From Pseudomonadota bacterium (GTDB taxonomy: Bacteria > Pseudomonadota > Alphaproteobacteria > Acetobacterales > Acetobacteraceae), in the NCBI GenBank assembly GCA_021845985.1, contig JAJZES010000041.1, forward strand, positions 1-64,000: a stretch of 64,000 nucleotides of DNA. Reading direction: 5' to 3'. Positions 9,226 through 39,463 of the stretch are shown in pieces (position 1 is the stretch's first letter; the number at the start of each line of letters is the position of its first letter). A model generated the notes under the pieces. That model saw only the letters and a program-made list of their open reading frames with translations. It was not told the DNA's origin and did no database searches. The position numbers and the translations under genes are program-made.

Positions 9226-10395
9226 TCACGTCGCGCCCTGCTGGTGGGTCTCGATCAGTTTGAAGGTCTTGCCGCCGGGCACGAAGGCCGCCATCACCAC
9301 GCTGTGCGCCATGTTGCCGAGCGCATCGGTGGTGAAGCGGCGGGTGACGCCGGGATAGTCGGTGACATGGGCGAAATAGTCGCGGATCGCCACCCGGTCG
9401 GGGCCGACCTTGCGCAGCGCATCAGCCAGAATCATCGCCGCGTCGTAGAAGCAGGAGCCGAACGGATCGGCGCCCATGCCGAATTTCTGTTGGAATCGCT
9501 GCATGTAGGAAACGCTCTGCGGGCCGATCGTGTCGCCGAGCATCGCGTCGAGCTCCACCCAGACATCCTTGAGGTCGTCCGGCCCGACCAGATCGAGCAG
9601 CGACGGCACCACGAACGAGGTGTTGCCGATGAACGGCATGGTCAGGCCGAGCGTGTTGCGCTGGCGCAGCACCAGCGCGCCGTCGCGGATGTAGGAGAAG
9701 GCGATCAGCGCCTTGGCGCCAGCATTCTTCAGCGACAGCAGTTGCGGCGCATAGTCGCTGTCGCGCGCGTTGTAGCCGGCGGTCGCCACCACTTTGGCGC
9801 CGGCCTTGATCAGCGCCGCCTCGGTCGATTTCGCCGTCGCCGTGCCGTAATCGTCGAGCACATGGATGATGCCGATATCGGTAAGCCCTAGACGCTTGGC
9901 GGTGAATGCGCCGATCGCCTCGCCGGCCAGCGTATCCTGCGGCCGGATGCGGAACATCCACGGATCGTGCCGGGCGGCAATGGCGATGGCGCCGCCGGCA
10001 TAGACGGTCGGAATCGCCGCCCGCGCCACCTGCGGCTCGACGGCCAGATTCTGCACCGTGTAGCTGCTCAGGAAAATGAACGGCGGGGCGAGTTGCTCGG
10101 CCAGCTTGATGAAGGCGTTGACGGCAACGCTGGTGGAGGCGCCGGTATCCTCAAACGCGATGCGGAAGGTTTTGCCGTTGATGCCGCCGGCGGCGTTGAT
10201 GTCGGCCACGGCGAGCTGCAGTGCGTCGTAGTACTGCAGGCCGGAACTGGCCAGGATGCCGGTGATCGGCACCGTGGCGCCGACCACGATTTCGTCCGCC
10301 GCGCCGGCGCGGCGCCCGGCAAAGGCCGCCGCCGCCCCCGCCGCCGCCCCCGCCAGAACGCTGCGCCGCCGCACCCCTGTCCGCTCGTTCGCCAT
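9226..10395 (-). CDS. ABC transporter substrate-binding protein, Leu/Ile/Val-binding family
   Basis: 389 residues. The N-terminus VRRRSVLAG followed by an Ala-rich hydrophobic stretch looks like a twin-arginine signal peptide, with processing probably after AGA near residue 33. The mature part has the type I periplasmic binding fold of LivK/AmiC proteins, with IVVGATVPITGILASSG and an early ITGI/GLQYYDAL region. TAT export fits folded periplasmic delivery. The substrate is not evident; the downstream CoA ligase and oxidase suggest an organic acid or a hydrophobic ester rather than an amino acid. It lies ten bases after the FAD oxidase gene. Confidence 0.88.
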   Translation of the reverse strand: MANERTGVRRRSVLAGAAAGAAAAFAGRRAGAADEIVVGATVPITGILASSGLQYYDALQLAVADINAAGGINGKTFRIAFEDTGASTSVAVNAFIKLAEQLAPPFIFLSSYTVQNLAVEPQVARAAIPTVYAGGAIAIAARHDPWMFRIRPQDTLAGEAIGAFTAKRLGLTDIGIIHVLDDYGTATAKSTEAALIKAGAKVVATAGYNARDSDYAPQLLSLKNAGAKALIAFSYIRDGALVLRQRNTLGLTMPFIGNTSFVVPSLLDLVGPDDLKDVWVELDAMLGDTIGPQSVSYMQRFQQKFGMGADPFGSCFYDAAMILADALRKVGPDRVAIRDYFAHVTDYPGVTRRFTTDALGNMAHSVVMAAFVPGGKTFKLIETHQQGAT

Positions 10396-30421: not shown

Positions 30422-30802
30422 TCAGTCGTCGTAGATGATGTAGCCGGCGGCGGCATCTGTCGTCGGCGTGCCGTCCAGTGCGCCGCCCTCGCGCCCCGGC
30501 TGCCAGTGCACGACAGCCTCGATCTTGCGTGCCAGGGCGAAATCTTTGGCGGTGATGCCCTTGGCCGAATGGGTCTGCAGCTTCACCTCGACCCGCGCAT
30601 AGGACACGCTCAGATCGGGATGGTGCCACGCCGCCTCGGCCAGATGGCCGACGACGTTGACCACCATCAGCGTGCCCTTCCAGGAATGGGTGCGATAGCT
30701 GCGGCGCAGCCAGCCGCCGCCATAGGTCCAGTGCGGCAGCGCGGTGAGCTGTTGGGCAATCTCCGCCTCCGACAGGGCCACATCGGCCTTTGCTGTGGTC
30801 AT
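30422..30802 (-). CDS. phhB: 4a-hydroxytetrahydrobiopterin dehydratase (pterin carbinolamine dehydratase)
   Basis: 126 residues. It dehydrates the 4a-carbinolamine of tetrahydropterin produced by aromatic amino acid hydroxylases; related proteins also occur beside molybdopterin or folate genes. The family signature is clear: H60HPD63 in the segment AAWHHPDLSVSYARVEVKL, followed by THSAKGITAKDFALA. I chose the ATG at 30802, which gives the normal length; the open frame extends about 19 codons further through an 11-bp direct repeat. No phenylalanine hydroxylase gene is in the window. It is divergent from the folB-fusion gene, a pterin-biosynthesis neighbour. Confidence 0.9.
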   Translation of the reverse strand: MTTAKADVALSEAEIAQQLTALPHWTYGGGWLRRSYRTHSWKGTLMVVNVVGHLAEAAWHHPDLSVSYARVEVKLQTHSAKGITAKDFALARKIEAVVHWQPGREGGALDGTPTTDAAAGYIIYDD

Positions 30803-31027: not shown

Positions 31028-32095
31028 ATGACGCTGATGCTGGCCAGCGTCAGCGACGCCGCCGAGGCGGCGGTGGCGCTCGATGCTGGCGCCGACGTGA
31101 TCGACCTGATCCCCCCGGCTCAGGCGGCGCCCGGCGGGGTGGCGCCGGCGCTGACCGCGGCAATCGTCGCCCAGCTCGGCGGCCGGTGCGTGGTCAGCGC
31201 GCTGGCCGGCGATCTGGCGGCCGAGCCGCCCGCATTGGCGGCGGCGGTGCGGGCGCTGGCGGCGGCGGGCGCGGGGTGGATCCGGGTCGGCCTGCCGGCG
31301 GGCGACGACCTGCCGGCGCGGCTCGCCGTGCTGACCCCGCTCAGCCGCAATATCCGCCTGATCGGCATGCTGTATGCCGATGAGCAGGCGGATTTCACCG
31401 CCGTTGCCGCGCTGGCGGCGGCGGGCTTCGCCGGCGCCATGCTCGACACCCCGCCGCCGCAGGGCGGCCGTCTGCTCGACCAGCTCGATCTGCCGGCGCT
31501 CGCCCGCTTCGTCGCCGCCTGCGGCACTGGCGGCCTGCTGTGCGGCCTCGCCGGCGCGCTGGAGACGCCGGACCTTCCCCGCCTGCTGCTGCTGGCGCCC
31601 GGTCTGCTGCTGTGCCGCGCCGCGCCCGGCGCCCGCGGACGCGCCGGCGGGATCGACCCGGCGCGGCTGCGGCTGCTGCGCGCGCTGATCCCCGCGCCCA
31701 CCACCGCGGACCGCGCCGCCGCCCGCGGCGGGCCGGTCACCGCCGCGGTCACCGATACGCTGTTCGTGCGCGACTTCGTGCTGCCGGTCGAGATCGGCGC
31801 CTATTCCAGCGAGCGCGGCCGGACCCACCGGGTGCGCTTCGATGTCAGTGTGCTGGTGGCGCGGGCCGGGCCGACGCGCGACATGCGCGATGTCTATTCC
31901 TACGACCTGATCAGCGACGGCATCCGCATCCTGGTCGCCGCCGGCCATGTCGATTTCGTCGAGACCCTGGCCGAACGCATCGCCGCGATGCTGCTCGGCG
32001 ACGCGCGGGTGGTCAAGGCGATGGTGCAGGTGACCAAGCTGGAGACCGGCTCGGGCGAAGTCGGCGTGGCCATCGAGCGCAGCCGCGCCCCATGA
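31028..32095 (+). CDS. Fusion: MfnB-like (furan methyl-phosphate synthase family) domain + dihydroneopterin aldolase
   Basis: 355 residues. Residues 1-230 form a TIM-barrel domain of the (5-formylfuran-3-yl)methyl phosphate synthase family (formerly DUF556), known from methanofuran synthesis and from methylotroph C1 gene clusters. Residues 238-355 are a dihydroneopterin aldolase (FolB): DTLFVRDFVLPVEIGAYSSERGR, VYSYDLISDGI and KLETGSGEVGV contain the expected Tyr and Lys. In the first domain the family motif D-(L/V)-K-(D/N)-P reads D26-L-I28-P-P, the (Y/W)-(V/I)-K-(I/V)-G motif has R86, and the later lysine is also missing. It may therefore be catalytically dead or altered while FolB is intact. 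The ATG overlaps the stop of a 36-codon open frame (30921-31031). Confidence 0.75.
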   Translation: MTLMLASVSDAAEAAVALDAGADVIDLIPPAQAAPGGVAPALTAAIVAQLGGRCVVSALAGDLAAEPPALAAAVRALAAAGAGWIRVGLPAGDDLPARLAVLTPLSRNIRLIGMLYADEQADFTAVAALAAAGFAGAMLDTPPPQGGRLLDQLDLPALARFVAACGTGGLLCGLAGALETPDLPRLLLLAPGLLLCRAAPGARGRAGGIDPARLRLLRALIPAPTTADRAAARGGPVTAAVTDTLFVRDFVLPVEIGAYSSERGRTHRVRFDVSVLVARAGPTRDMRDVYSYDLISDGIRILVAAGHVDFVETLAERIAAMLLGDARVVKAMVQVTKLETGSGEVGVAIERSRAP

Positions 32096-32139
32096 TGCGC
32101 CCCCGTGACGGGCGCCCCAGACGATCCTATGATGGGAAC

Positions 32140-32499
32140 ATGCAACCGACGCCGGACCACGATCAGCCGCCCGCCCCGCCGGAACCGCCGCCCGCCCCGT
32201 CGGAACCTCCGCGCGCGATGCACGACATCGGCGGCGTGCCGCGCTTCCTCTGCGAGCCGGTCGATGTCTCGCCGCACGCCCTGACCGGCTTCGACAAGCA
32301 GGCCGACGCGCTGCGCCAGATTCTCGGCGCCAAAGGCATCATGTCGGTCGATGAACTGCGCCGCGGCATCGAGGCGATCCCCGAGGCGGAGTACCACCGG
32401 CTCGGCTATTATCAGCGCTGGGTCCGCGCCATGGCCGAAACCCTGCTGCGCAAGGGCGTGCTGAGCGAGGCCGAATTGCGCGCGGCGCTCGCCACATGA
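32140..32499 (+). CDS. Nitrile hydratase beta-subunit N-terminal-like / thiocyanate hydrolase-type subunit
   Basis: 119 residues. After a Pro-rich N-terminus (about 1-28), the sequence MHDIGGVPRFLCEP and EAEYHRLGYYQRWVRAMAETLLRKGVLSEAELRAAL matches the helical N-terminal half of nitrile hydratase beta subunits, which is a separate gene in thiocyanate hydrolase. The stop overlaps the start of the next gene as ATGA, and all three genes are coupled. Its role would be structural, helping to form the active-site interface. The product is clear as a family; the substrate is not. Confidence 0.75.
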   Translation: MQPTPDHDQPPAPPEPPPAPSEPPRAMHDIGGVPRFLCEPVDVSPHALTGFDKQADALRQILGAKGIMSVDELRRGIEAIPEAEYHRLGYYQRWVRAMAETLLRKGVLSEAELRAALAT

Positions 32500-32780
32500 C
32501 GCTCGCCCCCGGCTGCGCCGTGCGCGTGCGCGACGACTGGCCGGAGCGGCGCGGCCCCTGCCATATCCGCACGCCGCATTACCTGCGCGGCCATGTCGGC
32601 GAAGTGGTGCGCCATCTCGGCGACTTCGCCAACCCCGAGGATCTCGCCTTCGGCCGGCCGGCGCCGCCGCGTCCGCTCTATCATGTCCGCTTTCAGCAGA
32701 CCGCGCTGTGGCCCGATGGGCGCGCCGGCGACGAGCTGCTGGTGGAGATTTTCGCCCATTGGCTGGAGCCGACGCAGTGA
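32496..32780 (+). CDS. Nitrile hydratase beta-subunit C-terminal-like / thiocyanate hydrolase-type subunit
   Basis: 94 residues of the SH3-like C-terminal half of nitrile hydratase beta: PGCAVRVRDDWPERRGPCHIRTPHYLRGHVGEVVRHLGDFANPE, then PLYHVRFQQTALWPD and ELLVEIFAHWLEP. In ordinary nitrile hydratases this is fused to the N-terminal half; here they are two coupled genes, as in thiocyanate hydrolase. ATG overlaps the previous stop (ATGA), and its own TGA overlaps the GTG start of the next gene (GTGA). Confidence 0.85.
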   Translation: MTLAPGCAVRVRDDWPERRGPCHIRTPHYLRGHVGEVVRHLGDFANPEDLAFGRPAPPRPLYHVRFQQTALWPDGRAGDELLVEIFAHWLEPTQ

Positions 32781-33382
32781 GCCTCGCCGCCGACATCGAC
32801 AGCCCGCGCCTGCTCGCCGCCCTGCTCGACGTGCTGGCGGCCAAAGGCATCGCCGCGCCCGAGGAGATCGCCGCGCGCATCGAGATCACCGACCGCGCCT
32901 CGCCGGCGCTCGGCGCGGCGATGGTGGCGCGCGCCTGGACCGACCCCGCCTATCGCGCCTTGCTGCTCGCCGACGGCAGCCGCGCCGCCGAGGCGCTCGG
33001 CATCACCATGCGCGGCCTGCCGCCGCTCGGCGTGCTGGCCAATGGCGACGGCGTGCATCACCTCGTCGTCTGCACGCTCTGCAGCTGCTATCCGCGCGCC
33101 GTGCTCGGCTACCCGCCGTTCTGGTTCAAATCCGCCGGCTACCGCGCCCGCGCCGTGCGCGACCCGCGCGGCCTGCTGGCCGATTTCGGCACCGTGCTGG
33201 CGCCGACGACGCGCATCCGGGTGGTGGACAGCACCGCCGATTATCGCTGGATGGTGCTGCCCGAACGTCCGGCCGGCACCGAGGGATGGGACGCAGCGCG
33301 CCTCGCGGCGCTGGTCCGGGAGGGCGACATGATCGGCGTGACCCTGGTTCAGGTCGGGGTGCCGACCGGATCACCGTCCTGA
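32777..33382 (+). CDS. Nitrile hydratase alpha-like / thiocyanate hydrolase gamma-like metal subunit
   Basis: 201 residues. The metal-binding claw is C99-TLC102-SC104 in the context VVCTLCSCYPRAVLGYPPFWFK; the Thr after the first Cys is the cobalt-type pattern (iron enzymes have Ser). The middle and last Cys of the claw are the ones usually oxidised to sulfinic and sulfenic acids. The N-terminal helical part and the C-terminal IRVVDSTADYRWMVLPERPAGTEGW are typical. GTG start overlapping the previous stop. It hydrates nitriles to amides, or converts thiocyanate to carbonyl sulfide; the sequence alone does not decide. No dedicated activator/chaperone gene is adjacent. Confidence 0.85.
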   Translation: MSLAADIDSPRLLAALLDVLAAKGIAAPEEIAARIEITDRASPALGAAMVARAWTDPAYRALLLADGSRAAEALGITMRGLPPLGVLANGDGVHHLVVCTLCSCYPRAVLGYPPFWFKSAGYRARAVRDPRGLLADFGTVLAPTTRIRVVDSTADYRWMVLPERPAGTEGWDAARLAALVREGDMIGVTLVQVGVPTGSPS

Positions 33383-38839: not shown

Positions 38840-39463
38840 ATGAGCATGCGCGGCACCCACCCTGGACGCAACGTCGTTGCGGCGGCGCTGCTGCTCGGAC
38901 TGGGCGGCTGCGTCGTCTATCCGGGTGGCCAGGTCTATGGCGGCGGCTACGGCTATGCCGCCCCGCCCGCCGCCGGCTACGCCCCAGGCACCGCCGACGG
39001 CGCCCCGCCCGCCTATTTCGCCCAACCGGGCTACGCCCAACCGGGCTACGCCCAACCGGGCTATGCCCAACCGGGCTATGCCCAACCGGGCTATGCCCAA
39101 CCGGGCTATGCCCAACCAGTCTTCGTCCAGCCGGGCTATGCCCAACCAGTCTTCGTCCAGCCGGGCTATGCCGGCTACGCCCCCGGCTTCATCGCCCCGC
39201 CGGTGATCGGTTTCGGCTTTGGCGGCGGCGGCTGGTCGGGCGGCGACTATCGCGACGGCGGCAACTGGCACGGCGGCGGGCCGGGTGGCTGGCAGGGTCA
39301 GGGCGGGCCGCGCCCGAACGACGCCGCCCAGAACCGCCAGCAACCGCACCCATGGGCGCGCGGCGGGCAGCAGACGGCGCAGCCGACCCGCTTCGCCCCG
39401 GCCGCCGCGCCGCAACAGCGCGGCGGCGAGCAGCGGCCGAACCCGAACCAGAACGGGCACTGA
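38840..39463 (+). CDS. Repeat-rich Pro/Gln/Gly/Tyr lipoprotein
   Basis: 207 residues. The signal peptide ends in the lipobox LGGC (Cys24), so it should be membrane-anchored by lipid. A central run has six AQPGY units followed by two AQPVFVQPGY units (about 61-110), then Gly/Trp-rich and Gln/Asn/Pro-rich tails, all predicted disordered. Several ATG codons stand at the start; I take the one at 38840. Function unknown. The composition resembles surface-exposed or cell-wall-adherent low-complexity proteins. No close operon partner; the next gene is convergent. Confidence 0.75.
   Translation: MSMRGTHPGRNVVAAALLLGLGGCVVYPGGQVYGGGYGYAAPPAAGYAPGTADGAPPAYFAQPGYAQPGYAQPGYAQPGYAQPGYAQPGYAQPVFVQPGYAQPVFVQPGYAGYAPGFIAPPVIGFGFGGGGWSGGDYRDGGNWHGGGPGGWQGQGGPRPNDAAQNRQQPHPWARGGQQTAQPTRFAPAAAPQQRGGEQRPNPNQNGH
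39020..39169 (+). repeat. 15-bp tandem repeats in the lipoprotein gene
   Basis: Six 15-bp units GCCCAACCGGGCTAY (39020-39109) are followed by two 30-bp units (39110-39139, 39140-39169) that combine a variant GCCCAACCAGTCTTC with GTCCAGCCGGGCTAT. The array is in frame. Its near-identity suggests recent expansion by slippage or unequal exchange. Confidence 0.9.

Follow-up and report, generated by a model that had tools for sequence, protein, structure and literature searches.

The fusion gene and its surroundings

The gene analysed here is an open reading frame on the forward strand of the window (the whole 64-kb stretch of DNA that was analysed), with its ATG at 31028 and its stop codon ending at 32095. 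Its product of 355 amino acids joins two domains: Pfam 4HFCP_synth (PF04476, the MfnB family) at residues 4-215 (E 4.6e-40) and FolB (PF02152) at residues 246-349 (E 6.7e-15). Both matches exceed the curated cut-offs, at about 138.2-139.7 bits against 22.4 for the first and about 56-59.2 bits against 31.8 for the second. A TIM-barrel fold and the Pfam score alike place the first half in the MfnB homologous family, and the fusion of an MfnB-like domain to dihydroneopterin aldolase, which the first-pass annotation had read from the letters, is borne out by Pfam in both halves. The features to which we refer below are the following.

30422-30802, minus strand: pterin-4a-carbinolamine dehydratase, divergent from the fusion (predicted start; the reading frame is open to 30859)
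31028-32095, plus strand: fusion of MfnB-type barrel and FolB, 355 codons (open reading frame, Pfam, Foldseek)
31037-31672, plus strand: MfnB (4HFCP_synth) domain, lysine-free (Pfam bits; lysine count 0)
31109-31111, plus strand: Ile28 codon, aligned with MJ1099 Lys27 (family alignment)
31283-31285, plus strand: Arg86 codon, aligned with MJ1099 Lys85 (family alignment)
31457-31459, plus strand: Pro144 codon, aligned with MJ1099 Lys155 (family alignment)
31763-32074, plus strand: FolB domain with E262, Y292, E312 and K337 (Pfam, alignment)

The genome under study (G000; relatives' genomes are numbered likewise, and its family is f1) is assembled in 45 contigs, 98.93% complete and 0% contaminated. 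The fusion gene lies inside a contig of 158 kb, and the codon scores of its two halves fall inside the span seen for the genes of the window. A consensus scan for a promoter and a terminator gave one promoter-like site at 32105, downstream of the gene, and one terminator-like site within it; neither was of use, and both were set aside.

The divergent dehydratase gene has a homologue, 66% identical, about 5 kb from the fusion in a genome of the same genus (G003). A working partnership between the two genes was considered and set aside, as the arrangement differs in G003 and no match is found in the stretch read from a second member of the genus, G002. Directly downstream of the fusion lie nitrile-hydratase-type genes (32218-32499, 32496-32780 and 32777-33382, plus strand), the beta subunit being split over two short overlapping frames (NHase_beta_N and the C-terminal part) that are followed by an alpha-type subunit; these reach neither the nitrile hydratase nor the thiocyanate hydrolase cut-off of NCBIfam. 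Further on, at 38840-39463 (plus strand), the protein predicted from the frame contains a series of QPGYA-type repeats.

A lysine-free barrel and a conserved FolB domain

In the family alignment the three lysines of MJ1099 (PDB 4rc1/4u9p) are all replaced. Lys27 and Lys85, which we take to be active-site residues, fall on Ile28 (ATC, from 31109) and Arg86 (CGG, from 31283), and Lys155 falls on Pro144 (CCG, from 31457); the stretches DVKNP, YIKVG and LDTAIKDGK of MJ1099 read DLIPP, WIRVG and LDTPPPQGG in the fusion. Each of the replacements proposed earlier, namely D-L-I in place of a DLK motif, arginine for a second lysine and a residue other than lysine at the third position, is thereby recovered. 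Lys155 is described as catalytic and substrate-binding in PMC11365854. Lysines at shifted positions are excluded, since residues 1-223 contain none and the only two of the protein, K330 and K337, are both in FolB; a separate, complete mfnB is excluded as well, the fusion being the sole PF04476 match in the genome.

The barrel shares its family, its fold and the equivalents of Asp25 and Asp151 (D26 and D140) with MfnB, as represented by MJ1099 and by Orf22 of Methylorubrum extorquens, but it differs in having no lysine and in reading LLCRAAPG where lysine-bearing barrels read LGFRGALC. Some residues that do not vary among ten lysine-bearing fusions are changed in it, among others D29P, F116Y, G195L, F196C, L200P and C201G. 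The barrels of G002, G016 and G038 contain exactly three lysines each, at the K27, K85 and K155 positions. Of these three lysines, which we would expect in a working furan synthase, the G000 barrel has none, and its sequence suggests that it is probably inactive in that reaction.

The FolB half, on the other hand, looks intact, as had been supposed: the Pfam match is above cut-off, and the alignment finds E262, Y292, E312 and K337, presumably the catalytic-type Glu, Tyr, Glu and Lys positions known from E. coli and S. aureus FolB. Compared with the dihydroneopterin aldolase 3v9o, the protein keeps these positions but carries an N-terminal extension of 240 residues and misses the cut-off of the NCBIfam equivalog TIGR00525 (72.15 bits), scoring 44.8 as a whole and 48.7 for the FolB domain alone; the FolB of lysine-bearing G002 likewise lies under it, at 54.9 bits. 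On its sequence, this half probably retains aldolase (or epimerase) activity for folate or another pterin.

We also examined the predicted fold. AlphaFold2, run on an alignment of 11 rows, gives a mean pLDDT of 78.5 and a pTM of 0.62, with most barrel blocks above 80. The dips in the barrel are at blocks 31-40, 141-150 and 201-210 (64, 69 and 57), which are the former active-site loops around Lys27, Lys155 and the GFRG stretch; in lysine-bearing L004 the same blocks reach 89, 78 and 84. The best Foldseek matches are 4rc1/4u9p (MJ1099) for the barrel and 3v9o for FolB. According to this model, the G000 barrel probably still folds.

The genome has two FolB matches, the fusion and a copy on contig C28 (L033 7796-8972; G000:C28, near 159795-160971). 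By eye, the latter closes a run of cobalamin-type genes; it lies after a short-chain dehydrogenase with the stretch TGGGQRLG and before a uvrC-like gene. The dehydrogenase thus carries the FolM-type motif TGX3RXG, which PMC1971073 assigns to pteridine reductases of the FolM/PTR1 type. It may be that the C28 FolB serves a tetrahydromonapterin branch and the fusion serves folate, or vice versa. No FolB other than the fusion is found in six relatives (G002, G003, G004, G016, G066 and G078). In G045 a second FolB is present, and the FolB of the fusion there is without its N-terminal half, a loss that is the expected next step after erosion of the barrel.

The C1 gene cluster in relatives and its traces in G000

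Of 11 related loci retrieved, seven carry the fusion at full length and an eighth, L008, carries part of it. Most belong to Hyphomicrobiales; one, L006, belongs to the genus of the window and is the G003 copy (public record JAKAZX010000066.1). On the plasmid NZ_CP088274.1 of Phyllobacterium sp. T1293 the fusion is a single CDS of 1170 bases, annotated as furan synthase, with the FolB match inside it; it heads a run with a flavoprotein, DUF6513 and DUF447, and fae and mch are nearby. In G002 the fusion is followed by matches to MfnE, a dihydromethanopterin reductase-like flavoprotein, the dihydropteroate-synthase-like DUF6513 and DUF447; an MfnF-like gene, Fae and Mch are found within the same 20 kb. 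Since mfnB and folB are separate genes within this cluster in G038, the fusion joins two cluster genes. For M. extorquens, PMC8141765 names Orf22, Orf21 and Orf9 as homologues of MfnB, MfnE and MfnF. The G000 protein matches that of Phyllobacterium in its two domains and their order, but its gene stands alone, without flavoprotein, DUF6513, DUF447, fae or mch as neighbours. The MfnB-FolB fusion is known in kind; what is unusual is the lysine-free state after an apparent loss of the pathway.

The reference fusions also share a linker motif of the D.R.LLAARGY type at residues 234-243, found in ten of them (for example in L024 near 9748-9774); a motif of the D.R.L.ARGY type is absent from G000, G003 and G045. 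We considered this absence as a mark of relics and dropped it, since L008 is without the motif, by eye, yet keeps its readable lysines.

A working furan synthase would also be expected to come with the methylofuran/tetrahydromethanopterin pathway, for which we took Fae (PF08714), Mch (PF01913) and FTR/FhcD (PF02289) as markers; none of the three has a match in the G000 genome, 98.93% complete as it is. Open reading frames of the G002 cluster stretch match the fusion gene and nothing else in the 64-kb window, and the G004 stretch adds one further frame, an ABC-type ATPase by eye, which matched in two places. Judged from Fae, Mch and FTR genome-wide and from the other cluster genes in the window, this branch of C1 metabolism looks to have been lost. 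The link to it that the first-pass annotation had drawn from a fusion of furan and pterin enzymes therefore holds for the origin of the gene, since the fusion heads that very cluster in relatives, and fails for G000 itself, where the suggested search, made for Fae, Mch and FTR/FhcD, found no match.

How does the state of the lysines relate to the pathway in other genomes? A search of 147 relatives found PF04476 in 10 genomes (G000 included, and nine of the 10 in family f1), Fae in six and Mch in six. Fae and Mch occur together in G002, G004, G016, G038 and G066. A further genome, G078 (87% complete, 820 contigs), has no match to either, and its contig has cluster neighbours. All six keep the three lysines and have cluster neighbours (identified by Pfam for G002, by eye for the others). 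In G000, G003 and G045 neither Fae nor Mch is found, and the stretches read show no cluster neighbours; these absences are weaker for the fragmented genomes G003 and G045. The barrels of these three are without at least Lys27 and Lys85. Among the nine f1 genomes lysine state thus tracks cluster context, six against three (Fisher 0.012). The three altered barrels are not alike: at the Lys27, Lys85 and Lys155 positions G000 reads I-R-P, G003 A-R-K and G045 gap-I-gap, and over five positions DKKDK of MJ1099 becomes DIRDP, EARDK and E-ID- respectively. G001, of the same genus as G000 and 94% complete, matches neither PF04476 nor FolB.

We also sampled 385 genomes across the class, of which 20 have PF04476; all 19 genomes other than G000 with a readable barrel keep the three lysines (the partial copy in G158, too short for these positions, was left out), so that the loss of lysines goes beyond chance. 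Fae is present in 17 of the 19, the exceptions being G203 (100% complete) and G259 (69% complete). Over 28 genomes, Fae is found in 22 of the 25 with lysines and in none of the three without (Fisher 0.006, kinship being ignored). The rule is imperfect: G097 has Fae without Mch, G043 has Mch without PF04476 or Fae, and G203 has MfnB without Fae. The last of these copies (G203:C19:61385-62062, L047) is the best-scoring MfnB of the class sample and keeps its lysines, with no Fae match in the genome. The Mch of G043 (G043:C1086:2200-3135, L046) is found in a genome 87% complete and in 1240 contigs, and the missing PF04476, Fae and FolB matches there may reflect incompleteness.

Erosion of the barrel and its interpretation

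Did G000 and G003, two members of one genus, lose the pathway together? In an rpoB tree of six genomes and 766 shared positions (no rpoB was found for G001, G038 and G045 and that of G016 is partial, so that these four were left out), G003 groups with pathway-bearing G002 rather than with G000, with a support of 94 for bases and 83 for protein. The fusion tree puts G000 beside G002, and neither tree joins G000 with G003. A single loss common to both is therefore disfavoured. Given this grouping and the presence of the cluster in G002, G004, G066 and G078, the simplest account is that G000 and G003 each lost it separately and that a third loss took place in G045, which belongs to another genus.

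The two halves of the G000 protein have evolved at different rates. On the protein tree the branches of G000 and G002 measure 0.72 against 0.14 for the barrel (about fivefold) and 0.23 against 0.15 for FolB (1.6-fold). Relative-rate tests of the same pair count 42 against 13 and 49 against 13 unique changes in the barrel (p 9e-5 and 5e-6), compared with 14 against 7 and 12 against 11 in FolB (p 0.13 and 0.83). With G004 as the partner, p is 0.015 for the barrel and 0.0018 for FolB (19 against 4 changes), so the FolB of G000 is not wholly unaccelerated. The barrel of G003 is also faster than that of G002 (p 0.003). Conserved columns lost in G000 number 11 of 53 in the barrel and 2 of 30 in FolB, a difference that is not significant (Fisher p 0.12). 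In G+C at first and second codon positions together, the three relic barrels are the highest of eight (0.717, 0.712 and 0.714 against 0.663-0.697), as would be expected if a GC-rich drift were less opposed in them.

Codon models point the same way in part, their omegas being rough because neutral branch lengths of about 1.5-5.4 mean that silent sites are saturated. In a joint model with shared branch lengths, omega of the G000 barrel is 0.27 or 0.26 under two topologies against a background of 0.14 (p 0.0023 and 0.0046), and it stays below 1 (p about 3e-7); G000 is the sole branch of seven with a barrel p below 0.05, uncorrected, the smallest among the other six being 0.08. Modelled domain by domain, the G000 barrel has an omega of 0.16, no different from background (p 0.64), and the G003 barrel shows no excess in either the separate or the joint models.

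We consider it fairly likely that the fusion is a stranded relic of a methylofuran/tetrahydromethanopterin cluster, kept for its FolB half, with a barrel that is dead yet foldable. In relatives, homology with MfnB and FolB suggests that the barrel of the ancestral fusion would make the furan precursor and the FolB half 6-hydroxymethyl-dihydropterin. If the G000 lineage lost the cluster, as the lack of Fae, Mch and FTR matches suggests, the product of the barrel would no longer be needed, and the gene would stay for the dihydroneopterin aldolase, for folate or another pterin, that its FolB half supplies. The barrel lies upstream of FolB in one frame, and the frame would remain open through the eroding barrel because selection for FolB maintains it while the chemistry of the barrel goes. 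That the fusion can outlive the pathway would follow from its being the sole FolB found in six genomes, of which G003 is such a case. Judging from its sequence, FolB is probably active and the reason for retention. Besides the null and adverse results of the rate and codon tests above, some observations count against this relic reading: with a second FolB on C28 the fusion need not be essential in G000, and constraint on the barrel exceeds what neutral drift over the whole branch would leave, which also fits a recent loss on a long branch. Decay, one of the fates first suggested for the barrel, is thus the best fit as far as loss of furan synthase function goes, and fits less well with a dN/dS still well below 1.

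That same low ratio, about 0.23-0.27 for the barrel, could mean instead that the lysine-free barrel folds as a pseudoenzyme and is retained because it governs the oligomeric state, stability or regulation of FolB. G000 keeps 40 of 43 variable all-hydrophobic barrel columns hydrophobic and 42 of 53 conserved columns, and the predicted barrel folds with MJ1099 as its best match, its low-confidence blocks lying at former active-site places. The other eroded barrels argue otherwise: G003, an independent relic, has barrel deletions and keeps 34 of the 43 hydrophobic columns, and G045 keeps 32 and has also lost half of FolB. Moreover, AlphaFold2 with 11 rows is a weak test of folding, the FolB blocks of the G000 model are lower too, and an averaged omega below 1 can arise on a branch with a recent loss. 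The scaffold role proposed at first therefore keeps the support of constraint and loses that of the G003 and G045 barrels, and we think it unlikely for G000. As a broader evolutionary course, in which a bifunctional C1-cofactor enzyme becomes, more than once, a monofunctional one whose silent barrel shapes or regulates FolB, it seems to us conceivable but doubtful.

A new, lysine-independent reaction of the barrel, also suggested at first, could draw on the retained D26 and D140, the open frame and the persisting constraint, but I28, P29, R86, P144, L195, C196, P200 and G201 form no recognisable motif and the three lysine-poor f1 barrels changed differently, with no common new site or motif, so we give it very little credence. 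An artefact, whether from faulty assembly or binning or from foreign DNA in the bin, would gain something from the fragmented state of G003 and G045, where absences are weaker, but is hardly credible for a gene with the contig, completeness and codon scores described above and with its like in those two genomes.

Taken as a relic, the fusion bears on how genomes are read. Annotation pipelines label these fusions by their barrel, as "(5-formylfuran-3-yl)methyl phosphate synthase", so that a lysine-free relic could be miscounted as evidence of methylofuran or methylotrophy in genomes without either. A literature search, thin in its coverage of subscription papers, found no lysine-free or relic MfnB-FolB fusion, which is weak evidence that this one is unpublished. 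The genomes moreover form a graded series: the fusion is intact in its cluster in G002, G004, G016, G066 and G078; its barrel is eroded in G003, where it is still the only FolB found; in G000 the barrel is lysine-free and a second FolB is present; in G045 both halves are broken up; and in G001 no MfnB or FolB is found. With such a series it becomes possible to test whether an inactive enzyme domain persists through its fusion to a partner that is needed. A label of a different kind is found on the Phyllobacterium plasmid, where the gene after the fusion (L083 9399-10034; NZ_CP088274.1 67278-67913) is annotated "dihydroneopterin aldolase", a name that may belong to the preceding fusion; the G002 gene that matches it in place is an amino-acid-kinase/MfnE-type protein.
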